Positions 5,265 through 61,684 of a stretch of 64,000 nucleotides of DNA are shown here, in pieces (within the stretch, counting starts at the first letter, position 1; every line of letters starts with the position of its first letter). A program made the position numbers and the translations under genes. Below the pieces are notes generated by a model. The model was not told where the DNA came from. It ran no database searches and saw nothing but the letters and a program-made list of their open reading frames with translations. Origin of the DNA: Ignavibacteria bacterium (GTDB lineage Bacteria; Bacteroidota; Ignavibacteria; Kapaibacteriales; UBA4661); the NCBI GenBank assembly GCA_014654705.1, contig JACVZY010000081.1:1-64000 (forward strand). Reading direction: 5' to 3'.

Positions 5265-8200
5265 TTACTCCAAAACAAACCGCGCCACTTGGTGCTGCAT
5301 AGCCTCAGTAAGTCGATGCAAATCCTGTGCTGCACGTGCAATCTCACCCACACCCACCGCCGCTCGCTCTGTGGCGCTGTGCATTGCCTCTATGCTCCGA
5401 AGACTTTCAGCGCTTTTGTCCGCTTGAGCGGCACTCATTTGCGAGATACGCCCCATTTGCTGTGCGTTGTCGTTCGCACTTGCGACTACTTTTTGCAGGG
5501 AAGTGCGCGTTTGTTCCGCCAGACTCACCCCTTCGTCCATTTGCTTTGCACCCTCCGAGAGCGAGGTAACGGCACTCTTAATTTCCTCTTGAATCGTTCG
5601 CACCGTTGAGCTAATCTGTTTGGTTGCCTGAGCCGTGCTTTCGGCAAGTTTGCGTACTTCATCGGCAACAACAGCAAAACCACGACCTTGCTCACCCGCT
5701 CGTGCGGCTTCGATAGCGGCATTGAGAGCAAGAAGATTCGTTTGGTCGGCAATGGATTGAATCACATCGGTAATTTCGCTAATGCGGTCGCTCAGCGAAG
5801 CCAGTTCCGCAACATTCCGCGAGGATTTTTCGACCAGTTTTGCAATATCGTGAATCTTCTCCACCGTTCGATTCACGATTTCCTCACCTGATTTTGCAAT
5901 GCGCCGCTCCTCATGTGCCAAAAGAAGCGAGGACTGCACGGTTGAAGCGTGCTCTGCGATTTCATTTGCACCTAAACGCATCGTTTCCGAAACTTCTCCG
6001 GCATTGCGATATTGCTCGTGAGCAAACGAAGCAAGTGTAGTTGCTGAAGTCGTAATATGCTCTCCCGATAATGCTACGGACTTGGCTGCCTCCATTACAC
6101 CGCCCACAATTTCACGCATCATCGTGATGGTGTGGTTAATGCCAACATACAAGTCGTGAATGTCGTCATTGGCGCTGTTTGCTTCCTGCTCCGATGAAAG
6201 GCTAATCGCTAAATTACCCTGCGCGACTTCATCCAGCGCTTGCAAAATGTACTGTACACTTTCCGCCAAATACAGACGCTTCTCCTCCACCGAGCGCTGT
6301 GCCATTTCGGCAATCTCCCGCAGGAGATGAGCTTCGGACAGCGCAAGTTCCGTTTTCTCTTTTTCCTCCGTGATAGATTGTGTGCGCTCTTGCACTAGCT
6401 CCATCAGTTCGCTCTCGCGCCTTTTTGTACGTTGTTCACGCCACCTGTAGGCGGCGGCGGCAAGCGCAATGACGCATAAAATCACAACGGTACGAAACCA
6501 CCACGTCTGGTAAAAAAACGGCTTCAGTTCAAAGGTTATTGCTGCATCATCATTGTTCCAAACGCCATCATTGTTGGCGGCACGTACGCGGAAGGTATAA
6601 GAGCCGGGCGGTAAATTCATATAAATTTCTTCGCGGCGCGTTCCCACATCGCGCCAGTCCGCATCAACACCGTCTAATTTCACCCGAAACTGTACGCGCG
6701 ACGGCGCAAGATAACTCAGTGCCGTGTATTCAATGGTAAACCGTTGCGTTCCGGCAGCAAAAGCTATCGGCTCAAACAAATTTGCCGTGTCGCGTTCTGT
6801 GGTGAAGCGCTCAATTTTTATCGGCGGTGCGAGGGTGTTGTATTGAATATTTGTAGGTTCTATTCCTACAATCCCACGCAGCGTTGGTATCCAGAACATT
6901 CCGCTTTTCGTTTTGCACGATACCGATGGAGCGCTTACCTGACTAGAGTTCATGCCGTCCCAGCGCCCGAATAGTCTTGTGGAGAAAGGTTTTTTCGAGT
7001 CCGCAAATGTATTCATGTCCTGCTTGGAAACGAGTTGTATGCCGTCGTTACCGCCCATCCACATCATTCCACGCTCGTCTTCGAGGATATTGTACACCGA
7101 TTCGCTTTGCAAGCCGTCTTTCAGCGTGAGCGCTGTCAGTATGCCGTTCTTGTAACGGTGGAAGCCCGCATTTGTGGCTATCCATACCGTGCCGTCGGCG
7201 TCTTCGTAGGAGTGCATGACTACGTCGGAGGCAAGACCGTTCTTGACCGTCAGTTGCTCTTTTACCCGACCGTCTGCAAAGCAGCACCAACCCTTGCCTT
7301 CGGTTGAAAGTAACAGCGAGCCGTTGCTTCCTTTTGCAATCCCAATAATGGACGCTCCGCGAAGTAATCCTTTGTCATCATCAACCACTGTCAATTTCTC
7401 GCCGTCTAGGCGTGCAAAACCCCCGTTTGTTCCTATCCACAGCACACCATCGGGTGCAAGAAAGAGAGAGCGAACGCGATTTTCCGGTAAACCCTGCTGC
7501 GTTGAAAAAACGGTAAATTTCCCGTCGCGGAAGCGGCACAAGCCCTGATATGTCCCAATCCAAACCGTACTGCCATCGGGGCTGCTGGTAATGCTTCTTG
7601 CCATATTATCCGGCAAGCCGTTTGCTTTGGTAAAATTCGTAAATGTGCCTTGGGAAAAACGGCTAACGCCTTCTGCCGTGGCTATCCAAAGGTCGCCGCG
7701 TGAGGTTTCGTGCACCGAGTAGGTGTAATCATCCACCAAACCTTCTTGCGTGGTATAGGTCAGGAATTTTCCATTTTTCAGTCTGTTCAAACCGCCTCTG
7801 TACGTCCCGATCCACAAACTCCCCTCACGGTCGGTCATCAGCGACCACACTTGATTGTCGGTCAATCCGTCTTTTTTGGAAAAATTGTCAAAAGCCGCAT
7901 TGATACTAGTGTTTGCTCGTTTGCGGGTGAGTCCGCCTGTTGTTCCTATCCAGAGCGTTCCCGATGCGTCTTCAGAGAGTGCCTGTACGCGGTTGTCCGA
8001 CAAACCGTTTTGTGTGGTGATTTGTTCAAGCACTTCTTGTCGTGCAGCAAATAAGCCTTTTCCTAACGTCCCAATCCAGAGTGTTCCGGCTTTGTCTTCA
8101 AAGAGCGCCTTGATAGGGGTTTTCGCCAAAGAATCAGAAAGCGAAGTATTGTTGTCTTGAAATGCCGACGAACACTTGCCACCGTGGGCGACAAACAAAC

Positions 8201-8834
8201 CTTGCGCCGAACCAATCCAGATTCGCCCCTGCTTGTCGGAAAGAAGCGCATTGATGGGCGTTGTCGGATAGCCTTGTTCCTTGCTTACTGCCGAGATAAC
8301 ACCCTTTTTCATCACGCATAGCCCCTTGCGCGTTCCAATCCACAGCGTTCCGTCCGCACCGATGCAGAGCGACAGCACGACGTCGCTCAACAAGCCAGCT
8401 TTGGTGCCGAATGTTGTGAAGGAGCCGTTTTCGTAGCGCATCAGCCCGCCGCCATTTGTTCCTATCCAGAGTGTTTGCTGGTTGCCCGTCATTTGCTCGA
8501 CGATGCACCACATTCCGTTGTTGGTAATTCCCTTCGTTACTGCTTTACTGAAAATGGTAAATTTACCACCGCCAAAACGCACCAAACCGTCGAACGTACC
8601 GAACCAGATATAGCCGTCAGATATTTGACGAATTGTCAGAATAGAATTGGAAGGCAAGTCTTCGTCGCGTGTCCACGTGTCGTGGTTGTACTGCGTGATT
8701 GCCTTAGCGGGATTAAGCGCAGGCGGCGCTTGTTGGGCATAAGCTGGCGGTGTAAGACAGAGCATCGTGAGTAGGAACACGATGGCAATGTTGCAAAATT
8801 TTGTTGTCGGGGGGAACAAGAGATGACACATCAT
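5265..8834 (-). CDS. Two-component-type beta-propeller sensor fused to a methyl-accepting chemotaxis signalling domain
   Basis: A 1,189-residue membrane sensor. Order: signal peptide (1-33, ending PAYAQQ); about fourteen reg_prop repeats of the WIGTxxGL type (40-650), enough for two seven-bladed propellers; a Y_Y_Y domain (about 685-770, with [17 protein letters not shown]); one membrane helix (about 777-798); a coiled coil; a HAMP-like segment containing GNLAISL; then a cytoplasmic MCP signalling domain whose hairpin tip (about 1018-1060) reads [17 protein letters not shown]. In Bacteroidota the reg_prop/Y_Y_Y periplasmic sensor normally feeds a histidine kinase in a hybrid two-component system; here the output is the CheA/CheW-binding MCP domain. 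I chose the ATG at 8834, preceded by GGAG nine bases upstream; a longer frame to 8918 would run into the terminator of the upstream gene. No che genes are in the window. Confidence 0.92.
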
Positions 8835-8857: not shown

Positions 8858-8888
8858 AAAAAAGCCCACACACGAGAGGTATGTGGGC
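8858..8888 (-). terminator. Rho-independent terminator of the S41 protease gene
   Basis: Read on the minus strand, a GCCCACA/TGTGGGC stem (8864-8870 with 8882-8888) is followed directly by six U residues (8858-8863). It lies 36 bp after the protease stop codon and just before the start of the propeller sensor gene, so the two are probably separate transcripts. Confidence 0.8.
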
Positions 8889-8923
8889 GAATCTGCGAAA
8901 AGTTTTGGAGCGGTGCAAGAACT

Positions 8924-11234: not shown

Positions 11235-13289
11235 TTACCGCAAAACAACCCTGAACGACGCACGAATAGAGCGTCCCGGCATGGGAAAATTACGAATGAC
11301 CGCATATCGCTCATCAAACAAATTATCGCCTTGAAGTCTTGCCGTTGCTTGCGTACTGCCAATCATAAACGCCATTTCCGCAAATGCACCAACTATAACG
11401 AACGCGGGCAGTACGGATTCGGGCGCATTGGAAGGCAGGTAGAACCGCTCACCTGCAAATTGTGCCGTCAGCCCTGTTTTCACGCGAATATCCGGCGAAA
11501 TACTGCGCTTGAGCGCCAGTACGCCTGATGCACAATGCTGCGGCGTGTAAATAAGCTGTTTGCCGCGCACAAAACTTGACGGCGTTTCGTTAGTTGCGCG
11601 TTGGTAGGTGTAGTTGATTGTGAGCGTCGCTGCTTGCTGACGATCATCTTCCAATGCCGCTTGGAGGCTTGTTTCTATGCCATAGCTTTGTGCATCGGCT
11701 ATGTTCTGTGCCGAGACGGTAAATGGCGAAGTTTGCACGGCAAGAATTTGATTTTCCGTGCGATGATAGAAGCCGTCTACACTTGCATCCAGGCGAAGAA
11801 GTCCATACAAAATTTCACCATAGATGGTTTGTTGGGTCTTCCAGCTTGTGCCAAGACTGAAACAGTTAGCGCGTTCAGGTTTTAGGCGGCTGTTCCCGAA
11901 ATTGAGGTAGTACAATTCATTGAACGATGGCGGGCGAAAATTATAGCTCCATTCAGCTCGAAACGCCCATGCCGAATCAAGTATCCATGCGCCTCCGGCA
12001 AGAGGCGATAGTGCCGTGCCAACATCGGAATAAAAATCTAACCGCACCGCAGCATTCGCCGCAAAGTGCGTTCCCAACGCTTTCCACGCGACATCACCCT
12101 TGCCTGCAAAAGCAGTATTTGTGCGCTCCACGAATGTACCCACATCACGCTGAAGCATATTGCCCTTGAGAGTAGATGCGCTGTGCTCCACAAGCCATTC
12201 ATGCGAGACCTGCACATCTGGAATATTCGTACTTTCGTCGAAGCGCAAGCGCCCACTTATTGAGTAATCCTGCGCTCGAAAGCGCTCATCGATACCGTTT
12301 GCGCCAAATTGTCGTGCATCGGGGTCGAGGTAATGCAGCGTGTTCCATTTCCCGGAAGCCAAAAGGGTGAATAGTACTTGCTCCGCAGGAATATACGCCA
12401 TGCGGAGCGATAGAAGCACATCGTCTTCGCCCAGACGTGCACGCGCCATCTCGACATTCCCTTGCACAACGGCTCCCGGCGTGCCGCGCTCGCCCGAACG
12501 CGCCATGCAACGCGCTTGCAGACTGAAGCGTGAAGATTGTGCTGCGATAAGAGCATTAGCGGCAAGATTGCGAAAGTCAGCATTCATGCGCTCGAGAGTA
12601 ACATTTTGCCCAAAATCATTGAATGGGAAAGGATAGTTCCCACGGGCTGATTGGTATTCAGCACCAGCAAATATGCCACCTCTGCCATTGCCAAAGAGGT
12701 CAAACGGCAGTGCTCCCGAAAGTGCGCCGCGAAATTCTTGAAAGGATGCGGCTTCTGCTTCCGCCTGTGCTTCTGCCCTTGATGCGCTTGATTTTGTGCG
12801 GATATTGACCGCTCCACCCATAGCATTGCCGCCAAAAACGGCAGCACCGCCACCGCGCACGACCTCAATTTCTTCCAGCATTGAGGCGGGCAGTGTTGAA
12901 AAATCGAACTGTCCGCTTTGAGTAGATTGCAAGCGAATCCCATCCAGCAATACTGCCGTCTGCGAAGCACTCGCGCCACGTAGAGAGACCGTTTTTAAGC
13001 CGCTCAGACCGCCGTAATTCCTCACAAACACTCCGGGCATAAAACTGAGTGCGTCCGCAATCTGCCGAGCGCCCAGCGTCTTGATAGCCTCAGCCGACAA
13101 AGCAGTCGTGGAAGCCGAAAGCCGCGCAGAGCCTGTGCCGATACGCTGCGCGGTGATGTCCACCGCTGAAAAGCGCTTTGTGCGTATGGTGTCGGCGATT
13201 TCCTTGCGCGATTGCCCATAGAGCGCTGTTGTGTAGGCTTTGTAATCGAGACAAAGAAGCAAGAGAAAAGTGAAAAGTCGTGTTTTCAT
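11235..13289 (-). CDS. TonB-dependent outer-membrane receptor (BtuB/siderophore type)
   Basis: A 684-residue outer-membrane transporter. It has a signal peptide (1-26), then a plug domain (about 40-155) with SLRGASASQTAVLLDGIRL and EIEVVRGGGAAVFGGNAMGG, then a 22-strand barrel ending in NLFDERYAVIRNFPMPGRSI and a terminal aromatic-poor VVLR. Unlike the SusC protein elsewhere in the window it has no carboxypeptidase-like N-terminal domain, so it belongs with classical vitamin B12/iron-complex receptors. The substrate cannot be decided: no cobalamin riboswitch is visible in the 89 bp upstream, and no ABC transporter genes are adjacent. It is divergent from the hydroxy-acid oxidase gene. Confidence 0.9.
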   Translation of the reverse strand: MKTRLFTFLLLLCLDYKAYTTALYGQSRKEIADTIRTKRFSAVDITAQRIGTGSARLSASTTALSAEAIKTLGARQIADALSFMPGVFVRNYGGLSGLKTVSLRGASASQTAVLLDGIRLQSTQSGQFDFSTLPASMLEEIEVVRGGGAAVFGGNAMGGAVNIRTKSSASRAEAQAEAEAASFQEFRGALSGALPFDLFGNGRGGIFAGAEYQSARGNYPFPFNDFGQNVTLERMNADFRNLAANALIAAQSSRFSLQARCMARSGERGTPGAVVQGNVEMARARLGEDDVLLSLRMAYIPAEQVLFTLLASGKWNTLHYLDPDARQFGANGIDERFRAQDYSISGRLRFDESTNIPDVQVSHEWLVEHSASTLKGNMLQRDVGTFVERTNTAFAGKGDVAWKALGTHFAANAAVRLDFYSDVGTALSPLAGGAWILDSAWAFRAEWSYNFRPPSFNELYYLNFGNSRLKPERANCFSLGTSWKTQQTIYGEILYGLLRLDASVDGFYHRTENQILAVQTSPFTVSAQNIADAQSYGIETSLQAALEDDRQQAATLTINYTYQRATNETPSSFVRGKQLIYTPQHCASGVLALKRSISPDIRVKTGLTAQFAGERFYLPSNAPESVLPAFVIVGAFAEMAFMIGSTQATARLQGDNLFDERYAVIRNFPMPGRSIRASFRVVLR

Positions 13290-47385: not shown

Positions 47386-47701
47386 GAAATGGAAGAAATG
47401 TTGAGTTTGGAATGTTGAATCCTGCGCTCTGCATGAATAGTAGGGAAAAGACGCTACAAATCTAGTACATTTGTTTTTTGAAAGCAAATAAGTGTGGTAA
47501 AGTCGGATTTGGTTAAATGGTCGCAAATGTGTAAGTTTCGGGGTGTTTTCACGCACTGGATTATGACTTTTTGTCATGGAAAAATGTGACTTCCCGCGCT
47601 TTGATGCGTGGTGAAACTTCCGTATTTTACGACTTCCGTCGTTATTGTTGTACTATTTTCTCCAATTTGGTTTTGCAGGATATTTATTAGGGTATATCGC
47701 T
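47386..47701. other. Divergent intergenic region before the giant gene
   Basis: This 316-bp gap separates the D-lactate dehydrogenase-like gene and the giant secreted protein gene. It contains a short repeat AATGTTGA (twice around 47398-47420), the candidate promoter at 47600-47630, and otherwise nothing I can name. Confidence 0.5.
47600..47630 (+). promoter_or_regulatory. Candidate promoter of the giant secreted protein gene
   Basis: TTTG (47600-47603) and TATTTTAC (47623-47630) are 19 bases apart. The second box matches four of six fixed positions of TAnnTTTG. The start codon lies about 66 bases beyond the predicted start site, the same distance as for the SusC candidate. Confidence 0.4.
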
Positions 47702-50700
47702 ATGAACACGTTACCTCTCTTCTCTCGTTATTCTTCTTTTATCGCTCTTTCACTGCGAAGAAGTGTCATCGTTTTTCTGCTCTTCTTTTGCTGTTTTGCT
47801 CAAACGATGTGGGCAGGGCAATATTGGTGGCGTTCAGCACCAGCGGATAATGTTTGGACAAATCCCGCAAACTGGTCAACAGTTGGTTTTGCTAGCGGGG
47901 TGAACGGAGGAACATTTCCAGGTCCGGCAGACACCGCTAGATTTGGCTTGTTAGCCGAAACCACCGCGCCTATTACCTTTATGGGCATTCCGCTTGCAGG
48001 CGTTGGGGCTATCTTCGCTCAAACATTGCAGCGCGTGATTACGATTCCAGCGGGAGAGACCTTGACAATCGCCGGAATGGGAAGTGATGCGGGCGGAAAT
48101 GCGAATATCACTATTGCAGCAGGTGCAACTATGAGAATTATGCCCGGCGCGACTGTGCAGGGAGCAGGTGGAGCTTTCCGATGGAATATTGCCGGTACGT
48201 TGGAAATCGTTGATAACGGTGCTGTTATTAGTAGTGGAATGGGGTTTTATCCGGGTTCGACCTTAAGATATACCGGTACACAGGCAAAAACAACAGGATT
48301 TGAACTGTTTGACGGGAATACAAATCTTCCATATGCAGGTGGCTTCCCAGGAGATATTATTGTCAATAAATCAGTAAACGCACTGACCCTCGGTAGCGAC
48401 CTATTTATTACCGGTAATTTTACTACAATGGCTGGAACGCCAGACGTCATTATTCCATCGCCACGCCGACTTATTTTGGGGAATACAGCAACATTGTTTT
48501 TAGCTCCTGGCAGACTTCTAGATGCGCAGCCTGGCTCAATTATGGAAATGCGTCGTACTACCTTGCAGGCTTCTTGGTTTGTGGGGCAACAAGTAGGCAG
48601 CTTAGAAATTAATAATCCTGCTGATGTTGTCCTGACCAATAGTTTAACTATAAGAAACACACTAATTATGACCAATACTGGTAACCTAGTTGTTGGCGCA
48701 AATACACTTACTTTAGAAGGAAATGGATCGAATCACGTAATAGGCGCGGGAGCGGGCAGAGTAAATGCTACGAATGTTGCCTCAGTTGTGCTTCTGACTG
48801 GTAACCCACAAATTGATGCTGCAAAATTTGTCTCCCCCATTGCCACTCTTCGCACAGGAGCAACACCCGTTGCCGCACCCACCATTAATGGTGGACCCGT
48901 TGCGGTAAATAATCTTGACCATGCAAATGGCACCTTGGGCATTTCCGGCACTGTGCGTTTAGTTGCTGGCGGTACGCACACAGTGTCTGCCGGTCCACCT
49001 CTTCGTACACTTAACATCAATTCGTTTGGTCGTCTGATTGTCGAAAATGGAGCTACCCTTACGAACAACGGTATTATTGATGTCGGCGGCGCAGGAACAT
49101 TGGAAATACAAGGTAATGGCATTGTGAATGGTGCAAATGACGTAACGTATTCCGTGCCCAATGCTGTTCTCGAATATACGGGTGCCGTTGCGAAACTTCC
49201 CACAGGGAGAGAATTTCCCAATGCCATGCCCGGCTCGGTGAATGTAGCCAATACGGCTGGTGTTACTCAGGCTGCCGGAACGACAAAAACGGTCGCCGGT
49301 ACCTTCACTTTGGTCGGTGCCGGTGTCTATTCAATCAACGGCATGACGGGCAATAGCTTGATTCTGAACGGACCGCTGGTCAATAGCGCAGCAGGGTTTT
49401 TCCAAGCGTTTAATAATAATTTTACCATCAATAATACTGTTACGGGCAACCTTCGCTTTGGTCCGACTGCTGCGGAATGGAGACTGAATAATTTCGTCCT
49501 GAACTCGCCAAGTGCAATCACGCTTGGTAACAATCTTGATGTTGCGAATCAACTGAATGTGGCAACAAGCTCTTTGGCAACAGGTGCTTTTACGCTGAGT
49601 TTACCCGGAGGTGCAACACACCTTATCGCTGCACCTGCGGCATTGAATGTGAGCGCCAGCGGTAGGCTGATTGTCAGCCCAACCGCTACGATTACGAATA
49701 ATGGAACGTTGAATGTGGCAGGCACGGGGACATTGGAAATTCAGGATAATGGAACCGTAGCAGGTGCAAATGATGTTGCGTACGCTGCAGCTACTGCAAT
49801 TTTACAATATACTGGTACGAATGCAAAGACAATGAGCCGAGAGTTTCCCGCAGTGATGAATGGTTCGGTGCTTGTTCAAAACACGGCACAGGTCTTACAA
49901 ACGGGTTCAAAGACAGTGAATGGAACTTTTACACTCAATGGCGGCGGAAATTTTTCTCTCAATGGCGGTGGAAATACGCTGACGTTTAATAATCAAGTGA
50001 ATGTCGCGCCGGGGTCAAACTTTCTTTCGTCCAATGTTAATAGCATGACGTTTGCCGGTGCTCTGCCCAGTACCATCAGCTTTGCAGCCTCATGGCAGCT
50101 TTTGGACAATCTTGCTATTACCGGAGCCGGTAGCGTCACACTCAATTCACCTGTTACAAACCTTTCTGGTGCATTAGCGTTGAATGGTGGGAATCTGATT
50201 ACTACTTCTACAAACACGCTCACAATTACCAATGCTATTCCTGGTTCTGTTACGCGGACAAGTGGTTTTGTGGACGGACCGCTTAATCGCGCAATGACCG
50301 GAGCCGCCGTGTATGATTTTCCCACAGGTAAGGGCGGACAATATCTACCCTTTACTATCTCTAACCCCGGAGGAGCCTGTACGGTGTCGGTGGAAGCCTT
50401 TAATGCAAATGCGGGCGGCGCAGCAGGCGCGGGCATGGGGACACTATCGACGGCAGAATACTGGCGTACACAAACTATCGCCGGTGCATGGACAGGCGGG
50501 CAGGTTGCCTTGCAGCCGATTACCGCACCAACCGCCGGACACGTCGTCGGGCGCTTTGATGGGATGTCTCCTGCGGGAACCTATACGAGCATAGGTGGGA
50601 ATGTCACCGCTCCTACTATTGCCAGTACTGCTCTCACGCCTCCGGCTCCGGCAACGTCAATGTATTTTCTTAGAAGCACCTCTCTTCCTCTACCGACTAC

Positions 50701-53700
50701 GGCGACAACCATTGCATTTTCAGGAGTCACATCAACAGATTTTTCAGGAACGTTTGCTCCGGCGACATCAGCTACTACCGGATATTTAGTTGTACGTCGT
50801 CCGGCTGCATCTACGGGAACCTCCCCTGTCAATGGTATGACATATACTGTTGGTGTGGGACTTGGAGCCGGAACGGTTATTGTGGCTAGCTCGACTACGG
50901 CATTTGCCTCTGCAAGTTTATTACCAAATACCAGCTATACAGTTGATGTATATTCCTACAACGGTGCGGGTGCTTCAATTGTCTATTCTGCTTCTCAACT
51001 CTCTGGCACGGTAACGACACTCTCCGGCGCAGTACCCTGCACGACGGGAACAATTACCCTTCCAGTAACAAGAACAATCTTGGAACGGAATATACAATTT
51101 ACAGCACTCAGTTTTACCGGAGCAGGTGTGTTAAGCGGTGCAGGTACGAATACGGCGTATGTTAATCCCGGCGGGATGTTTCAGTTGAATTATACCTATA
51201 ATACAACTCCTGCCGGTTCCTATTGTCCGGGCTGTGTAACGCAAATTTACATCGGGATTAATGGCAACTTTACTCATTGTATTGCTTCACACGTACCGCA
51301 AACGTCGTCTCCCGTGCCAGCTTCAACACCAACATTCGCTGCTCCTCTTACGCCCGGCATCTATTACGTTGCTCTCAATGGCTCATGGGATTATTCATGT
51401 TATTCGACAGTCGGCTTTTCGACCAATCCGGCGGATGCTATTGCGACGCTGATAGTGGGTGCGCCCTGTCAGTCAAACGTCAGCGATATGGTGCAGCCTG
51501 CATTTGCCTATTCGTCGCCTGTTTCATATGTTACAAACACGAATAGCCCTGTCAATGTTGCAAATCCTGCCGTGTGGGCTCTTCGTGTCCGCGATGGTGG
51601 TATGTTGGGAGACGCAGATGTCCTGCCTACGGTCATAACCGGAATGACCATCAACATTACGGACGTAAATAATGTTCTTGCTCGTGTGGCACTGTACGAC
51701 GCAATGGGAACAACGAAACTGGGCGAATTTGCTGCTGCCCCGACGCTCACTTTTAGCGGACTTGATGCTATTGGCGGACCGCTTGTAACTGCACCGGATA
51801 ACGGAAGCGTTGATTTTATTCTCAAAGCCACATATAAAACCTCTCCTATCATAGACAACAGTCAGTTTGCCTTCACGGTCACGGCAGTCACGTCTCGTTC
51901 CGACCGTTCGGGTATGGGCGGGTTTATGACCGTAGGACCAAGTTCAACAACTGGAAACAATAACAGGATTGATGTTGTTGCCGACAGACCTTCGTGGACG
52001 ACGACCGGAACTGTTCAACCGACAAACGTAGGGCTGAGTTCTCTTCAAGTTAGCCCTGCGCCTGTTGTAGCGGCGGTGGATATCAATGGGAACATAGACC
52101 TTGGTTATACCGGAACCGTGCAGGTATCAAATCCACCGTCGCTCTTTGGCGGACCTATCAATCTTAACGCTGTTGGCGGTTATGCGACTTTTTCTGGGGC
52201 AAGTGCCATACGGCATACTACCTCTGGTACAATGCAACTCACGGCGACCATTATGGGTAATACCGCTCTGAGTAATGCCTTTACGGTGCAGCCTGCAATT
52301 CTTTCTGCCACGCCCACTCTCCTCAATTTCGGGAGCGTGGCGGTGGGCGAATTTATTGAACAGTCTTTCACGCTGAATGGTTCGGCTCTTCCGACAAACG
52401 GTCTTCTTCAGTTCAGTGTGGCTAATACCACTGCTTCAATTTCGGCTACGGGCGGAGGAGCGTTTGCAACTGCTGCCACGATAGCCCTTAATCCTACGCC
52501 CCTTGCGCCAAGCTCTCCCGGAGGCAGTACGATTGGGCAAACATTTTACGTTCGCTACAAACCGACGACGAATTTACCGATGAACGCCCAGTTATCCGCC
52601 ACGTTTCCCGGAAGTACCTCAGCGGCAATTAACCTTCAAGGGCAGGGTATGGCTACGACGGTAACGACCAGTACGCTTGCCATGAATTTCGGTACTGTCT
52701 TTGTAGGCAGCAATAGTGACCTTCCATTTTTGGTGTCGGCAAATAGTATCTCCGGACCACTCACGATTACAGCAAGCACCGGCGTCACAATTTCTTCAAC
52801 CGGGACAGCACCGTTTTATTCGTGGTTTCCTCTGAATCCGGTAGGTAATCAAATTAACCCGCAGCTTATTACCGCTCGATTTACCCCAGTTGCATCGGGT
52901 GTGACGGTGATGGGAACGATAACGCTTACGAATCCTTTCACAAGTGCTACGGTGATTTCGTGGCAGGGTACAGGGGCAAATTCTGTGCCGGTGGCATTGG
53001 GTTTTGCTTCCAGTGCCGAAACATCCAGCACGGCTACGGGCGGTGTTCCGGGCGGCGTACTGGATGCAACGCCTTTTGCGGTTCAAGCAGCCTCTTTCCG
53101 TGCCGACGGTGTGATTGCCAATGTCAGCACAGCAAGCCTACAATTGCAAGTTGCACCGCTTCCGGGCGGCACAGCAACGTTTTCGCTTTCCGGCGGCGCG
53201 GCTAATTTTGCTGCTGCCAGTAGGGTAACATTGCCCAATGTTGCTATCACGTGGACAAATGCACCCCTCGCAGGCGGCGTTACGCAGGCTGTGGTAACGT
53301 TAGTGCGGACAAGCGGAGATGTGCTTCAATCGACGCAAGCAATCATCAGCATCAATAAAGGACCAGTCATTCCGACTATTACCGGCATTAGCCCTTTGAT
53401 TATCGGATCGGGTTCGACGGTAACGATTAGCGGCACGAATTTCTTCAGTTCGACCACTGTTACATTTGGTGGCGTTCCGGCGGCAGGTTTTACCATCAAT
53501 TCTGCCAATCTCATCACGGCTATTGTCGGCACCTCCGGCGCAAGCGGTGACGTAGAAGTGCGTGCACCGGGCGGAATAGCAAGGACACGTACGGCAAGCA
53601 ACAGCACCGATACCGTGCGATTCTTTGGTCCGCCTACCATTACGGATTTTAACCCGAAAGTCGGTAAAGCAGGCGATATCGTTACCATTCAAGGAACAAA

Positions 53701-56700
53701 TTTCGACCCCTCAGCGCTTGCGTTTTTTGGTGGTTTTCAAGCAGGTTCTGTGACGGTCAATAATCCTTCGGTGATGAATGCCGCGCTGTCTGCAAACGGC
53801 GATAATGGTCTTGTTTTTGTGCGGTCTGTCGGTGGCACGACCACAAGTTCCGTGTCATTTTCGTTTGTCCGACCGCCTGATATTCAGGGGCTTGGTACAA
53901 AATTTGGAACACTCGGGACGGAAATTATTGTTACTGGCGCGAATTTCAAATCTATCAGTGAAGTATGGCTCGGTCCAGTGCAAGTAACCTTGTCCACAGT
54001 CACAGTTGATTCTCCGCAGCAGCTACGTTTCCGCGTACCGGCACCCGTCAGCGGACCAATTACGGTACGGAATATTGCCGGAACAAGCATCAGTGCGGAT
54101 GTCTTTACCTTCGTTTTTCCACCACAAATTACCTCCATGACCCCGGACAGTGGTAGTTTGGGCAATCAGGTCGTTATTCGCGGGCAAAACTTTATTTTGG
54201 TGACGAGCCTGACCATCGCAGGAGCCACGCCACTTCAAACATTTGTTACCTCCACAACACAAATTGTGGCAATATTAGGACGTGGCGAAACCGGTACTGC
54301 TCCTGTTATTCTTCAAACGATTGGCGGTGTTACTGCTTCAACGCTGCGCTTTACGTTTATCAATCCGCCACTTATCTCGTCCATTCGTCCGCTCGTTGGT
54401 GGACCGCGTACACTGCTGACCATCACGGGCGCGAACTTTAGCGCTATTGACCGCGTGACCGTCGGTGGACTTGATGTACGGAGTTATGAAGTGATTTCTA
54501 CCACGCAAATTGTGGCAGTTGTTTCTGATGCAGGCGGTAGTGGTAGCGTACAAGTCTTTAACCGACTCGGCGGTGCATTTTCCGGTGAACGTTTTACGTT
54601 CTACTTCCCACCAAATGTGCAGAATTTTGACCCTCTCGAAGGCTCAACGGGTTCGACGATAACAATTACGGGCGAAAATTTTGTAAATTCTACTTCAACG
54701 GTTGTTACGATTGGTGGTGTTCCGGTAGCAGAGTTTGAGGTGCCGATGGCAAGTCAGATTATCGCTGTGGTCTCGACCGGTGCAACAGGAAAAGTCGGTG
54801 TACGAACCGATGGCGGGTATTCGGAAAGTCTTATGTCGTTCCGTTTTGTGCCGCCCCGCCAAGTGCCAGCGCCACGTATTACGAACTTTGCACCCGATTC
54901 CGCATCGGTTGGCGATATTGTAACAGTGGATGGTCTCAATTTTGTCAACGTCCGGCAAGTGAGGGTTAGTGGTGTAACGGTTGCATCCTTTACTGTCAAT
55001 TCTCCGACATCGCTCAGTTTCTTGCTTCCACAAGCAACGACCGGTACGATTGAAGTACAGACGACAACGGGCACAGCAATTGCGCGGCGCGAACTTGTGA
55101 TTGTGCCGCCTCGCCTCCAGCTTACACCGCTTCAGCGCGACTCGGTAGTGGCAGTGCAAATCTATAATGCTACCGATGGCGCAAACTGGACACGTAGGCG
55201 TAATTGGCTTACCACCGTGACCATTGACCGTTGGCAGGGAGTTACGGTTGAAGGAGGGCGTATCACGCAACTTACGCTTGATAGTGCGGGTGTACGCGGG
55301 ACGTTGCCGATTGTCATCAGTAGTTTGACAGCTCTCAAAGCCTTACGTGTACGCGGCAATAGTCTCGAAGGGGCTTTTCCGTCCGGTATTCTCTTGCTTC
55401 CACAACTACAAGAATTGGCGCTGTCCAATAACCAGTTCTCCGGCGAGATACCGAGCGGTATTGGTTCTATGACGAGCCTTACGTCATTACGGTTGGACGG
55501 GAATCGCTTCACAGGGCAAATTCCGGCGGAAATGTGTTCACTCATCGGCTTAAAAGAAATTGTGTTGGCGAATAATCAGCTTACTGGTACCATACCATCG
55601 TGCTTTGCACGAATCCCGGTACTGGAGCGGCTTGACCTGAGCAATAATCGTTTCTCCGGTGGTATTCCGACTGAATTTGCCGCACTGCAGCTTTTGCAAG
55701 ATTTGCTTGTGAATAACAATTTCCTTGTTGACCAACTGCCACGCACGATTTGGGGCAGTGCCACGGCGACGGTTGCCGGTGGGAAGAATGATGGACAAGT
55801 AACTGCAACAGGCTTACGGTCACTGGTGCGTCTCAACATTAGCAACAATCAAATTATTGGTGAAATTCCAACGGAGATGGTCAATGCCACGACGTTGCAA
55901 GAATTTATCGCATCAAACAATCAATTACGCGGTTCGCTGCCAAGCGCATTGGGCGCACTCGTAAACTTGCGTGTGCTGGATGTTTCCAACAACAGCCTCA
56001 CGGGGCAGATACCAAGCAGTGTACGCGACTTGCGTCTTGTGGAGCGTTTTGCAGTCGGTCGGAATAATCTTTCCGGCACTATTCCACTTGAGATAGGGCA
56101 AATGGTCAACCTGCGTGTGCTGGCGCTGGACAGCAACAATTTTTCGGGGGCTGCGCCCGAAGCGTTGACGACGCTTGCGCGATTGCAAATACTACGCCTT
56201 CAGAAAAACCAAATTACGACTATTCCAAACCTCAGTGGTATTACGCCGTTGACCATACTGGCTGTTGAAAATAACCGTTTGCAATTCGAGGCGCTTGAGC
56301 CGAATGTTCGTTCCTCGGCAACTTCCTTCACCTTCACCTATTCGCCGCAAGACAGTATAGGTACGGCGCGGGATACAGCCGCCGCCGTGGGGCTGCCGTT
56401 TACGCTCTCGTCGCGTTTGCTCAGTGACAACAATGTTCATACGTGGTTCAAAAATGGTCGAGAAGTGCCCGGCGTACTGAGCCGTGCGCTTACGTTCCCT
56501 GCGTTTGCACGGCTTGATACGGGTGTTTACAATGCTCGTGTGACCAATAGTGTAGTGCGTGGTTTGACGCTCTTCACGCGCCCCGTGCGTGTGTTGGCTT
56601 CCACCGCACCTGCCCCGTCCAGTCCGCCAACACTCCTTGCCCCCGCAAATCAAGCGGCTAATGTTTCCTTAAACGGTACCTTTGAGTGGTTATCGGTCTT

Positions 56701-58273
56701 AGGTGCTGGTAGTTATGATGTGCAGATTGCCACCGATGCTGCGTTCAGCACGCCAACACTTGATACGAACGTTGTTGGGACGCAGGTACGACTTTCTGGA
56801 GGAACTCTGAAAAGCTTTACGAGTTATTTCTGGCGCGTTCGGGCACGAAATGAAAGCGGTGTGAGTGAGTGGTCATTATCGCGGACATTTACGACGATTG
56901 ATGCCGGAGCGCTTGTGGTCATTCCGCAAAGTGATATTGGGCGCACGGTGGTCGGACGTACAAAATCTGGGACGGTTGAGGTGGTAAGTGTGAGTGATGC
57001 ACCGGTGCAGATAGTCGGAGCACGTTTGGAAGGAACGGACATAACAGCATTCCGCATAGATACAACTACAACATCAGTGCGTGACGTAACAATTCCTGCT
57101 TTTGGCAAATACCAAATTCGTATCAATTTCAATCCCGCGTCCTTGGGTGTGAAACAAGTGCGTTTGGTGCTGACTCTCAGCAATGGCGGCGCAACGACCA
57201 CCGAACGAAGTGGGATTGTGCGTGGTACGCCGACGTTTGTGGATGTGAATAATCTTGATTTTGATACGGTTCTGACTGATTTTGTCAAAGTGCGTAATCT
57301 TGCAGTTGCGAATTTTGGGCGTGACACTATTCGTATTCGTGAAAGGCTCATTTTCTCGGATACGACAACTACAAAACTTGACCCGGCAGCCCCGCAGTTT
57401 CCTTATACTATTCTCCCGGGCGAAACGATGTATTTGCCAGTCCAAATGAAATCATCACGTATCGGAGAGACTTCCGGAACAATAAGTATTGTTACAGCAC
57501 AAGACACTATTGTTGTTATGACCAAAGCCTTTATCCGCGAAAAAAATGACCAGGATGTCAGCTTTAGTGTTGGAATAGAGGCGATTCCAAATTTTGCTGC
57601 ACCGGGTAGCAGGGTAAATCTAAGACTATTCGGTATTGCTGATAAAGGTAAAAGTATGGCTGGAACTCTGCGTGAGATTTTTCGTGAAGGTAATCCTTCC
57701 TTTTCGGTAACAATTTCTATGAATCGTAATGTACTTGTACCATTAGCAACAGAATCTAAAATGACAACAACAGCTACTCCGGGTGTTTATCGTATTGTTC
57801 AAGAAAGGCTCAATGACCCAAGTGATTCTACTTTCATACCCACTATTGAGTGTATTGCAGTAGCCGGGGTAACGGATTCCACTGGGATTGTTATCACCGA
57901 GCGAGCATGGAATTCGCCGAGAATCTTTGTGGGAGCAAAAGATGGGGCATTTAAGGCAAATGTCTCACGGGCAGGCGGCATGCGGCTTATAGCCCCCGCC
58001 AAGACGACGACTAATCTCATCACGGCGCTCAAACCGAATCCTTCAAGCGACGAGGCTGTCATTGCCTACACAATACAGCAAGACGAGCCGCTTGAAATTG
58101 CGGTCTTCGATGCACGTGGTATGAAGGTGCGGACGCTTCTGACGACTAATGAGCAAAAATCAGGAGCGCATACTATTACTCTACGCACCAGCGACCTTGC
58201 AAGCGGTCAGTATCGCATCATGCTCATAGCGCCGTCGGGCACGGTACAAGAGCAGTTGAATGTGGTGCGGTAA
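47702..58273 (+). CDS. Giant multi-domain secreted protein (beta-solenoid, IPT/TIG, LRR, Ig, FN3, T9SS sorting domain)
   Basis: One uninterrupted gene for about 3,523 residues, probably a cell-surface adhesin. Domains in order: signal peptide (1-39, ending MWAGQ); a beta-solenoid-like region (40-865) with three long repeats beginning GTLEI(V/Q)(D/G)NG near 164, 464 and 676; a Ser/Thr/Gly-rich middle with fibronectin-like parts (865-1530); two choice-of-anchor modules (about 1533-1760, LNFGSVAVGE and MNFGTVFVGS); seven IPT/TIG domains (about 1888-2465); an LRR cap and about thirteen plant-type LxxLxxNxLxGxIP repeats (2478-2865); an Ig-like domain (2870-2965); FN3 (2973-3065); a choice-of-anchor module (3075-3275); and a T9SS type A domain (3435-3523, with LKPNPSSDEAVI and GMKVRTLL). 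I chose the ATG at 47702 for the signal peptide. It ends at a strong terminator. Confidence 0.95.
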   Translation: MNTLPLFSRYSSFIALSLRRSVIVFLLFFCCFAQTMWAGQYWWRSAPADNVWTNPANWSTVGFASGVNGGTFPGPADTARFGLLAETTAPITFMGIPLAGVGAIFAQTLQRVITIPAGETLTIAGMGSDAGGNANITIAAGATMRIMPGATVQGAGGAFRWNIAGTLEIVDNGAVISSGMGFYPGSTLRYTGTQAKTTGFELFDGNTNLPYAGGFPGDIIVNKSVNALTLGSDLFITGNFTTMAGTPDVIIPSPRRLILGNTATLFLAPGRLLDAQPGSIMEMRRTTLQASWFVGQQVGSLEINNPADVVLTNSLTIRNTLIMTNTGNLVVGANTLTLEGNGSNHVIGAGAGRVNATNVASVVLLTGNPQIDAAKFVSPIATLRTGATPVAAPTINGGPVAVNNLDHANGTLGISGTVRLVAGGTHTVSAGPPLRTLNINSFGRLIVENGATLTNNGIIDVGGAGTLEIQGNGIVNGANDVTYSVPNAVLEYTGAVAKLPTGREFPNAMPGSVNVANTAGVTQAAGTTKTVAGTFTLVGAGVYSINGMTGNSLILNGPLVNSAAGFFQAFNNNFTINNTVTGNLRFGPTAAEWRLNNFVLNSPSAITLGNNLDVANQLNVATSSLATGAFTLSLPGGATHLIAAPAALNVSASGRLIVSPTATITNNGTLNVAGTGTLEIQDNGTVAGANDVAYAAATAILQYTGTNAKTMSREFPAVMNGSVLVQNTAQVLQTGSKTVNGTFTLNGGGNFSLNGGGNTLTFNNQVNVAPGSNFLSSNVNSMTFAGALPSTISFAASWQLLDNLAITGAGSVTLNSPVTNLSGALALNGGNLITTSTNTLTITNAIPGSVTRTSGFVDGPLNRAMTGAAVYDFPTGKGGQYLPFTISNPGGACTVSVEAFNANAGGAAGAGMGTLSTAEYWRTQTIAGAWTGGQVALQPITAPTAGHVVGRFDGMSPAGTYTSIGGNVTAPTIASTALTPPAPATSMYFLRSTSLPLPTTATTIAFSGVTSTDFSGTFAPATSATTGYLVVRRPAASTGTSPVNGMTYTVGVGLGAGTVIVASSTTAFASASLLPNTSYTVDVYSYNGAGASIVYSASQLSGTVTTLSGAVPCTTGTITLPVTRTILERNIQFTALSFTGAGVLSGAGTNTAYVNPGGMFQLNYTYNTTPAGSYCPGCVTQIYIGINGNFTHCIASHVPQTSSPVPASTPTFAAPLTPGIYYVALNGSWDYSCYSTVGFSTNPADAIATLIVGAPCQSNVSDMVQPAFAYSSPVSYVTNTNSPVNVANPAVWALRVRDGGMLGDADVLPTVITGMTINITDVNNVLARVALYDAMGTTKLGEFAAAPTLTFSGLDAIGGPLVTAPDNGSVDFILKATYKTSPIIDNSQFAFTVTAVTSRSDRSGMGGFMTVGPSSTTGNNNRIDVVADRPSWTTTGTVQPTNVGLSSLQVSPAPVVAAVDINGNIDLGYTGTVQVSNPPSLFGGPINLNAVGGYATFSGASAIRHTTSGTMQLTATIMGNTALSNAFTVQPAILSATPTLLNFGSVAVGEFIEQSFTLNGSALPTNGLLQFSVANTTASISATGGGAFATAATIALNPTPLAPSSPGGSTIGQTFYVRYKPTTNLPMNAQLSATFPGSTSAAINLQGQGMATTVTTSTLAMNFGTVFVGSNSDLPFLVSANSISGPLTITASTGVTISSTGTAPFYSWFPLNPVGNQINPQLITARFTPVASGVTVMGTITLTNPFTSATVISWQGTGANSVPVALGFASSAETSSTATGGVPGGVLDATPFAVQAASFRADGVIANVSTASLQLQVAPLPGGTATFSLSGGAANFAAASRVTLPNVAITWTNAPLAGGVTQAVVTLVRTSGDVLQSTQAIISINKGPVIPTITGISPLIIGSGSTVTISGTNFFSSTTVTFGGVPAAGFTINSANLITAIVGTSGASGDVEVRAPGGIARTRTASNSTDTVRFFGPPTITDFNPKVGKAGDIVTIQGTNFDPSALAFFGGFQAGSVTVNNPSVMNAALSANGDNGLVFVRSVGGTTTSSVSFSFVRPPDIQGLGTKFGTLGTEIIVTGANFKSISEVWLGPVQVTLSTVTVDSPQQLRFRVPAPVSGPITVRNIAGTSISADVFTFVFPPQITSMTPDSGSLGNQVVIRGQNFILVTSLTIAGATPLQTFVTSTTQIVAILGRGETGTAPVILQTIGGVTASTLRFTFINPPLISSIRPLVGGPRTLLTITGANFSAIDRVTVGGLDVRSYEVISTTQIVAVVSDAGGSGSVQVFNRLGGAFSGERFTFYFPPNVQNFDPLEGSTGSTITITGENFVNSTSTVVTIGGVPVAEFEVPMASQIIAVVSTGATGKVGVRTDGGYSESLMSFRFVPPRQVPAPRITNFAPDSASVGDIVTVDGLNFVNVRQVRVSGVTVASFTVNSPTSLSFLLPQATTGTIEVQTTTGTAIARRELVIVPPRLQLTPLQRDSVVAVQIYNATDGANWTRRRNWLTTVTIDRWQGVTVEGGRITQLTLDSAGVRGTLPIVISSLTALKALRVRGNSLEGAFPSGILLLPQLQELALSNNQFSGEIPSGIGSMTSLTSLRLDGNRFTGQIPAEMCSLIGLKEIVLANNQLTGTIPSCFARIPVLERLDLSNNRFSGGIPTEFAALQLLQDLLVNNNFLVDQLPRTIWGSATATVAGGKNDGQVTATGLRSLVRLNISNNQIIGEIPTEMVNATTLQEFIASNNQLRGSLPSALGALVNLRVLDVSNNSLTGQIPSSVRDLRLVERFAVGRNNLSGTIPLEIGQMVNLRVLALDSNNFSGAAPEALTTLARLQILRLQKNQITTIPNLSGITPLTILAVENNRLQFEALEPNVRSSATSFTFTYSPQDSIGTARDTAAAVGLPFTLSSRLLSDNNVHTWFKNGREVPGVLSRALTFPAFARLDTGVYNARVTNSVVRGLTLFTRPVRVLASTAPAPSSPPTLLAPANQAANVSLNGTFEWLSVLGAGSYDVQIATDAAFSTPTLDTNVVGTQVRLSGGTLKSFTSYFWRVRARNESGVSEWSLSRTFTTIDAGALVVIPQSDIGRTVVGRTKSGTVEVVSVSDAPVQIVGARLEGTDITAFRIDTTTTSVRDVTIPAFGKYQIRINFNPASLGVKQVRLVLTLSNGGATTTERSGIVRGTPTFVDVNNLDFDTVLTDFVKVRNLAVANFGRDTIRIRERLIFSDTTTTKLDPAAPQFPYTILPGETMYLPVQMKSSRIGETSGTISIVTAQDTIVVMTKAFIREKNDQDVSFSVGIEAIPNFAAPGSRVNLRLFGIADKGKSMAGTLREIFREGNPSFSVTISMNRNVLVPLATESKMTTTATPGVYRIVQERLNDPSDSTFIPTIECIAVAGVTDSTGIVITERAWNSPRIFVGAKDGAFKANVSRAGGMRLIAPAKTTTNLITALKPNPSSDEAVIAYTIQQDEPLEIAVFDARGMKVRTLLTTNEQKSGAHTITLRTSDLASGQYRIMLIAPSGTVQEQLNVVR

Positions 58274-59311: not shown

Positions 59312-59626
59312 GGTAATCGTGGAATTGTATGCAAAGAGAAGTTAGGGATTGTTCTCGAAAAATGGACAATTTTTTTGGAATATCAAATCAATTTTTGCCA
59401 GTGAGAAGGTCAATGTTACGATTTGGTAATATTCTGTTTTATTGCCTCTTCCAAAGTCTGTGCTTTTATATTGCGGCAACTGTTCAATACGCAGTTCTAC
59501 TCTGCATTGGTTGAAAATGCAAGTCTTTCAACCTCCTTGCACGATGTGTAGTAGAATCTGGGGGAACTTAAAAAGGAGACTTCCCTGTGGTGTATCGCAC
59601 CCAAATACTCAGGAAACGGAGAATTG
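59312..59626. other. Divergent intergenic region before the chemotaxis receptor gene
   Basis: This 315-bp gap holds the promoters of ppk2 and the receptor gene. A promoter-like TTGC (59442-59445) and TATATTGC (59467-59474), 21 bases apart, point to the receptor. Overlapping hairpins TTGAAA/TTTCAA (59511-59516 with 59526-59531) and TGCAAG/CTTGCA (59518-59523 with 59536-59541) lie in its leader and cannot form together. Confidence 0.45.
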
Positions 59627-61684
59627 ATGAACCAACTGCGACTATCGCTGTACCAAAAAATTGTTGGGCTGGCGTGTATAATTCTTGCCTGTAGCGGAGT
59701 GATTATGCTCCTTAATTCCACCCAACGGGAGGCACTCAATGAGCAAGGTACAATGCGCTTGGCAAAGATTTTTTTCTTAGAAGCACGTTCCGCCGAGAGG
59801 GATTTTCTTGCAAAGCGCGATACAGCGCTTATTCGCATTCTCGACAATAATGTGGAAGCGCTTGTGCGGACGCTCAGTGTGCATGATGACCCCGCAATAG
59901 TACGTGTTGTGGGTTGTATTGCTGGCTACCGCACCGATGCTCGTGCGCTTATTGCCGATGTGAAAAAGCGTGGACTAACGCAAGATTTGGGGGTAGAAGG
60001 AGAGTTCCGAAAGCAGGTTCATGCGGTAGAAGAAGCCACAAAGAAGTCTGGTCAAATAGGGCTTTTAGCGGAAATGTACCTCGCACGGCGGCATGAAAAG
60101 GACTTTATCAATCGTGGTTCTACAAAGTACATCCAAAGCGTTAACGAGACTGTTACGTCCTTTCTTGAGAAACTTGATAAAACCTCCCTTGGAAGAGCCG
60201 AAAAAGAGTACCTGCGCTCGCTAATGCTAACGTATCAAAGCGGCTTTCGGGAGTATGTGAGCGTGAGCAACAGTATCAATGCTGCGCGAGTACGTTTGGA
60301 CAGCATGAGCGCAACTCTCACGCCGCAGATGGATGCTATCGTGCAAGACCGCGACTCAAAAGCAGAGCGTTTCCAGACGTTCACGCGCATCGCAGGTGTG
60401 GCGCTTTTTGTATTGGCATTGGGCATTGCTCTGTATCTCGCACGGCGTATCACCGAGCCAATGGAAATGCTGACTCGTGCCGCCAACAATATTGCGTCGG
60501 GCAAAAGCGAAGTGCAGGTGGAAGTGCGCACCAATGACGAAATTCAAGCGCTGGCAGAATCATTCAATGTCATGGTTCATAGCTTGCGTACTTCGCTCGA
60601 AGAAGTTCGCGAAAAGAGCGCGGAGGCGGAGCGCTCCGCAGAAGAAGCACAACTAACGCGGGCAATAGTCGAAGAGAACGGTGTCCACTTGGCGCAAAGC
60701 ATACAGAGGATGCTGCTTGCAATGCAGAATTTTGCAATGGGCGACCTGACGATAAAGCTGCCCGAAGACAGCGACACTGCTATCAATAACCTCTTTCGTG
60801 GCTTTAATGGTGTGGTTGAGGATATTGGGCTGCTGGTCTGGGAAGTGGTGAGCGCTACACAAGCAATTACACTTGCGTCGTCGCATATTGCTCGCAGTAC
60901 AGGTGATATTGCTGTCGGGATGGAAACACAAAAAGAACGCACCGCCGAAATTGCTGCTGCCGTAGAAGAAATTAGTGCGACGATTGGCGAAAACACAAAG
61001 CAAGCGGCGTTTGTGGCTCAAGAAGCGCAAGAAGCTAGTGCTGTGGCGGCGCATGGCGGAGAAAGTATGCGGCAAATGGTCAGTAACGTTGAGAAAGTTG
61101 CCAAAGTAGTCATGGATTCTTCCACTGCAATTCAGCACTTGGGCACATCAAGCGAGGAGATTGGTGTAATTGTGTCAGTCATCGAAGAGATTGCCGACCA
61201 GACAAACCTTCTGGCATTGAACGCCGCTATCGAAGCAGCTCGTGCAGGAGAGCAAGGGCGCGGCTTCGCTGTTGTTGCCGATGAAGTGCGCAAACTCGCC
61301 GAGCGAACACAAAAAGCAACCAAAGAAATTTCAACGATGATAGCCCAGATACAAAAGAACACCCTTCAGTCGGTACGTTCTATGGAAGCAGCAACTATTC
61401 TTGTTGAAGAAGGCAGCCAATTTGTAGGCGAGACTACTGCCGCGCTCTCAGACATTATCGCCAAAACACGCACCGTTGCTAGCTTTATGACCCAACTTTC
61501 TGATACCACACGCGAAGAAGCAAAAACGAGTTCCATGATAGCCGAGCGTATTGGTTCGGTGAACACGCTCACCGAGCAGTCTAATGCAAAGGCGCACAGT
61601 ATTGCCGATGCAGCAGATGAGCTTGCGGACTTGACAGAAAAACTACAGGCAGTTGTCAGCAGATTTGTGCTGGTAAATAATTAA
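59627..61684 (+). CDS. Methyl-accepting chemotaxis protein with HBM-like sensor domain
   Basis: A 685-residue transmembrane chemoreceptor. TM1 (about 10-29) and TM2 (about 252-272) enclose a helical periplasmic domain of about 220 residues. Its paired motifs [13 protein letters not shown] and [12 protein letters not shown] are those of helical bimodular (HBM) sensors, which in characterised cases bind organic acids such as TCA intermediates and acetate. A HAMP domain (about 273-325, [15 protein letters not shown]) follows, then a second HAMP-like segment with [10 protein letters not shown], then the MCP signalling domain with tip [17 protein letters not shown] near 535. It signals to CheA/CheW, which are not in the window. 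The ATG at 59627 has GGAG five to six bases upstream, one of the few clear Shine-Dalgarno sites here. Confidence 0.95.

Follow-up and report, generated by a model that had tools for sequence, protein, structure and literature searches.

Known chemoreceptor sensor domains mostly bind small molecules. Bacteroidetes detect degraded plant or animal sugars with large outer sensors, and the hybrid two-component sensor BT4663 senses heparin and heparan sulphate. Sensors of the propeller/Y_Y_Y type found in such hybrid two-component systems (HTCS) bind specific oligosaccharides (PMC3243724), and a scissor-like signalling movement has been reported for BT4663 (PMC8534201). This sensor is known to be modular, as plasmid records join it to kinases, to diguanylate cyclases and, in one case, to an adenylate/guanylate cyclase. 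None of the best 10 of 83 matches in the plasmid collection (kinases, cyclases and unspecified propeller proteins) was annotated as an MCP, and a literature search, with protein-architecture databases outside its scope, found no paper in which Reg_prop or Y_Y_Y is paired with an MCP.

The gene described here, P0001, encodes such a pairing, and its product is classed here among the chemoreceptors, as one whose sensor is of the HTCS type. It lies in the window (the whole 64 000-nucleotide stretch analysed, from contig JACVZY010000081.1 of Ignavibacteria assembly GCA_014654705.1) as a single minus-strand frame of 1189 residues, whose product is ordered as signal peptide, 14 propeller blades, Y_Y_Y domain, one transmembrane (TM) helix, coiled coil, putative degenerate HAMP and MCP hairpin (Table 1). 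The first-pass annotation had proposed about fourteen reg_prop repeats, a Y_Y_Y domain and one membrane helix, with a complete MCP signalling hairpin as the cytoplasmic half in place of a histidine kinase, and the analysis agrees with it on each point. Pfam identified Reg_prop (1.5e-57), Y_Y_Y (PF07495, residues 708–769, 6e-15) and MCPsignal (residues 973–1153, 2.3e-42; 145.2 bits against a cut-off of 34.6), each well over its cut-off. One internal TM helix is present. Fourteen blade motifs were counted at regular spacing between residues 76 and 646, an even arrangement that fits two seven-bladed propellers. Pfam matched neither HisKA nor HATPase in P0001, so a histidine kinase at the C-terminus is rejected; two of 17 aligned relatives do carry both domains, and the MCP architecture itself is conserved in relatives.

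Table 1. Features of the P0001 gene and its upstream flank, with positions in the window.
Feature	Position	Strand	Basis
Complete gene P0001, ATG to stop, 1189 aa	5265..8834	-	Open frame and orthologues
Signal peptide, residues 1–34 (hydrophobic core 9–34, AYA-QQ)	8733..8834	-	Hydropathy, sequence
Two tandem 7-bladed beta-propellers, residues ~45–668	6831..8702	-	Pfam, blade count, AlphaFold, Foldseek
Y_Y_Y domain, residues ~690–771	6522..6767	-	Pfam PF07495, modelled beta strands
Single transmembrane helix, residues ~779–803	6426..6500	-	Hydropathy; helix 778–807 in model
Kinase-type coiled-coil linker (ERTQ...), residues 804–862	6249..6425	-	Alignment to histidine-kinase paralogues
Putative degenerate HAMP, residues ~863–925	6060..6248	-	Pfam HAMP in relatives; PDB match 3zx6
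MCP cytoplasmic hairpin, residues 926–1189	5268..6059	-	Pfam MCPsignal; Tsr 1qu7, TM1143 2ch7
Hairpin tip, predicted CheA/CheW binding, residues 1028–1061	5652..5753	-	Likeness to Tsr tip
Terminator-like hairpin of upstream S41 peptidase gene	8864..8888	-	Sequence

P0001 itself has no Pfam match to HAMP. We infer a degenerate copy because Pfam finds HAMP in six of the 17 aligned relatives and in Rhodothermus, and because a PDB sequence match to the HAMP-Tsr fusion 3zx6 starts at residue 865. The C-terminal half matches Tsr (1qu7) and TM1143 (2ch7) by sequence, with a hairpin tip near-identical to both. Methylation sites of the strict consensus are absent and only two relaxed matches were found; CheR and CheB are encoded in the genome.

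In an AlphaFold model built with 16 sequences, confidence is high over residues ~45–770, with the propellers at pLDDT ~90, and low in the MCP part (mean pLDDT 72.5). Its best Foldseek matches are the BT4663 sensor chains 4a2m and 4a2l, the latter with a TM-score of up to 0.84, normalised by target, over the whole length of 4a2l. As modelled, then, the periplasmic half of P0001 is predicted to share the BT4663 sensor fold along its full length.

Judged from the sequence, the most plausible start is the ATG at 8834, because a GGAG motif lies just 5' of it and because the frame from a longer TTG start at 8918, which we rejected, would cross the terminator of the preceding gene (stem 8888–8864). 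Placed in this way downstream of the S41 peptidase terminator-like hairpin, and with its own GGAG, the receptor gene is probably transcribed alone. Orthologues 65–82% identical to P0001 occur in five other genomes of its genus, Candidatus Kapaibacterium (Ignavibacteria; eight genomes, G000–G007). When orthologue neighbourhoods were compared, the P0001 gene proved to lie outside any che operon or sugar-use locus, and neighbours were unconserved around most orthologues, a common neighbourhood being found only in the two closest genomes. Since neighbours are not shared, the receptor gene seems to stand on its own, and no polysaccharide-utilisation locus adjoins it. A SusC/SusD-like pair, judged from sequence and with no adjacent regulator identified, lies 8 kb away in this genome (16760–21484, +); no homologue of it was found beside the orthologues. 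The same window also holds an ordinary HAMP-MCP chemoreceptor (59624–61681, +) and a 3542-residue protein (47645–58270, +) that combines TIG, fn3 and leucine-rich repeats and carries a T9SS sorting domain at its C-terminus.

Where the two halves were joined can be approached by alignment. The alignment of P0001 with two kinase paralogues (L081, L082) runs through the TM helix and has no gaps at the start of the coiled coil. Since most kinase matches to P0001 stop at ~880–895 and the MCP-only matches start at ~812–840, the fusion point lies inside the coiled coil, roughly at residues 830–890. One parent would thus have given the sensor, the TM helix and the kinase-type linker, and the other the HAMP and the hairpin.

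Whether other proteins share this architecture was a question raised in the first-pass annotation, and they do so well beyond the orthologues. A paralogue on another contig of this genome (C4) has the same architecture, is 36% identical to P0001 and belongs to a subfamily present throughout the genus; G005 and G006 have a third subfamily of the fusion, and G001 a divergent fourth. We then searched 395 genomes of the phylum with a profile of the Y_Y_Y-to-HAMP region, scoring six candidates per genome, and full-length profile matches joined to an MCP were found in at least eight of them: four of the genus, one from a distant member of the Ignavibacteria (G122) and three of genus g81 (Rhodothermus). 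Among Rhodothermus genomes the fusion is present in three of seven; in R. marinus DSM 4252 (G068), whose second contig is identical to plasmid NC_013502.1 over its first 6 kb, the receptor gene has an in-frame stop in blade 2, and in the complete Rhodothermus genome G063 the gene is intact.

Maximum-likelihood trees, one for the sensor half with 56 rows and one for the MCP half with 60, in which the genome's own other Y_Y_Y and MCP proteins were included, show that this distribution has more than one origin. On the sensor half, a topology that places all fusions in one clade, as a single ancestral fusion would require, is rejected (AU p = 1e-6), and the branches with good support call for three changes or more: one for S1/S2/G122, one for S3, which sits next to a paralogue, and one for Rhodothermus. 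These three sets are likewise apart on the MCP-half tree, where the partner of S2 is an ordinary MCP (96/92) rather than S1. S1 and S2 as one clade were not rejected on either half (p = 0.29 for the sensor, p = 0.13 for the MCP), nor were S1, S2 and G122 together on the sensor half (p = 0.21). As read from these trees, independent fusions number at least two and probably three, and four or five are possible.

The first-pass annotation had itself named two findings that would tell against a genuine fusion, namely two genes joined by an assembly error and a kinase at the C-terminus, and neither was found. The assembly is a draft of 118 contigs and most of the relatives found are metagenome-assembled, which leaves some room for a chimera of two separate genes; yet in four of the five orthologues, from independently assembled genomes, the frame continues unbroken across the same junction (65–71% identical by BLAST; in the fifth, 82% identical, the gene is split over two contigs). 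The same architecture is present in complete Rhodothermus chromosomes and GC is flat along the gene, at 50–52%, and we regard a chimera as extremely improbable. A degenerate or decoy fusion that plays no part in signalling is a less remote possibility for P0001 but still quite unlikely. The degenerate HAMP, the poor methylation sites and the in-frame stop in the DSM 4252 homologue would fit such a reading, but the orthologues point to strong purifying selection on both sides of the junction: in both halves Ka is ~0.2 while Ks is close to saturation, and Ka falls to 0.07–0.08 around the CheA/CheW-binding hairpin tip, the lowest protein-changing divergence in the gene. That the fusion formed independently more than once likewise argues against a decoy.

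As to partners of the receptor, cheA and cheW, which the first-pass annotation had proposed to check for elsewhere in the genome, are both there. The main che cluster encodes CheB, CheA, CheZ, two CheY proteins, CheR and CheW; a second CheA lies beside a CheW, an 827-aa MCP and several response regulators; and a CheW-receiver protein and 47 MCPs are encoded as well. CheW and a long CheW-domain protein (CheA-like) were found in all eight fusion-carrying genomes tested. A CheZ-like protein (12001–13119 of sequence L152, -) scores 30.9 bits against a cut-off of 30.7 and ends in two DIDALF repeats that resemble the FliM peptides to which CheY binds; FlhA is absent from this genome.

Taking together the domains, the fold, the intact tip, the conservation, the presence of CheA, CheW, CheY, CheR, CheB and CheZ, and the repeated independent fusion, we consider it likely that P0001 is a transmembrane chemoreceptor that signals to CheA in response to a large ligand in the periplasm, probably an oligosaccharide. 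Points that tell against this reading are the unconserved neighbourhood outside any che operon or sugar-use locus, the loose methylation-site matches, the low confidence of the modelled MCP part, and the lack of a flagellum in the genus and of a pilus motor in this genome. A periplasmic ligand, most likely an oligosaccharide, would bind the propellers, upon which the dimer would close scissor-like at the Y_Y_Y domains, as described for BT4663. The motion would travel along the single TM helix and through the coiled coil to HAMP, and HAMP in turn would alter the packing of the MCP four-helix bundle; this repacking would alter the activity of CheA held by CheW at the hairpin tip, with CheY-P as the output of the pathway. 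What ligand is bound, which way the response goes and which organelle or process it governs are inferences in this scheme.

What the pathway controls is a separate matter, as the first-pass annotation allowed for when it named motility or another CheA pathway. FlhA is absent from this genome and from the seven congeners searched (none of eight in the genus), no PilB or PilT pilus ATPase scored above cut-off in this genome, and GldM gave no match here in a search without an informative positive control. Because of the missing FlhA and pilus ATPase, gliding or another CheA pathway is at least as likely as swimming to be the output in this genus; in Kapaibacterium that output would perhaps be T9SS gliding or a non-motility pathway. 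This genome thus combines a full Che system and 47 MCPs with the lack of FlhA and of a pilus ATPase, and the four genomes of the genus tested for them (G000, G003, G005, G007) all keep CheW and CheW-domain proteins despite the absence of FlhA in the genus. A CheA pathway unconnected with movement, with gene expression, second messengers or the cell surface as its target, would still regulate physiology, with an MCP array replacing the histidine kinase. The flagellar, pilus and gliding searches and the second CheA, with its adjacent 827-aa MCP and response regulators, are in keeping with such a pathway, whereas the main che cluster, with its CheZ, CheR and CheB, belongs to the classical chemotaxis type, the GldM result lacks its control, and both Rhodothermus and G122, which share the architecture, have FlhA; we hold this alternative possible but rather unlikely. 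In Rhodothermus marinus, the type strain of which is described as non-motile, FlhA and the long CheW-domain (CheA-like) gene are ~9 kb apart, and the output of the fusion receptor in Rhodothermus would be the flagellum.

Regardless of output, each half of the chemoreceptor proposed here is a textbook module; what is new is their combination, its conservation and its repeated origin. Because the fusion arose repeatedly, it seems that HAMP-MCP can read the propeller/Y_Y_Y signal just as kinases and cyclases can, and the repeated origin also bears on how very large sensors are accommodated in chemoreceptor arrays. A receptor with an HTCS sensor would let a cell react through its behaviour, within seconds, to the same large glycan fragments to which gene expression otherwise responds over minutes. 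Only tentatively would we go further and suggest that conversion of sensor to chemoreceptor, repeated probably at least three times, has given taxis to specific polysaccharide fragments and, in Kapaibacterium, control of a movement or behaviour without flagella or type IV pili. The Rhodothermus homologues, in a culturable genus with flagellar genes, make the receptor reading testable.

Compared with described systems, P0001 resembles several in part. PorZ of the T9SS, matched by both NCBIfam and Foldseek, has two propellers and a Y_Y_Y-like domain but neither TM helix nor MCP domain; a PorZ-like role was rejected, as NCBIfam NF052228 reaches 77.6 bits against a cut-off of 260 and the topology is wrong. 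With the Bacteroides HTCS (BT4663, BT3049, BT4673), P0001 shares a double seven-bladed Reg_prop propeller, a Y_Y_Y domain and one TM helix, but it has an MCP hairpin as output and lacks their histidine kinase, receiver and DNA-binding domain. With MCPs such as Tsr, TM1143 and the PcaY type, it shares a putative HAMP-like segment, a complete hairpin and the conserved CheA/CheW tip; in contrast, its ligand-binding part consists of ~740 residues of propellers where usual MCPs have a four-helix, Cache or PAS domain, a signal peptide and a single internal TM helix stand in place of two TM helices, and a kinase-type coiled coil precedes HAMP. Finally, the Reg_prop/Y_Y_Y diguanylate and adenylate/guanylate cyclases (Granulicella, Salinivibrio, Treponema saccharophilum) combine the same kind of sensor with a non-kinase output, but theirs is a second messenger, whereas that of P0001 would be CheA.
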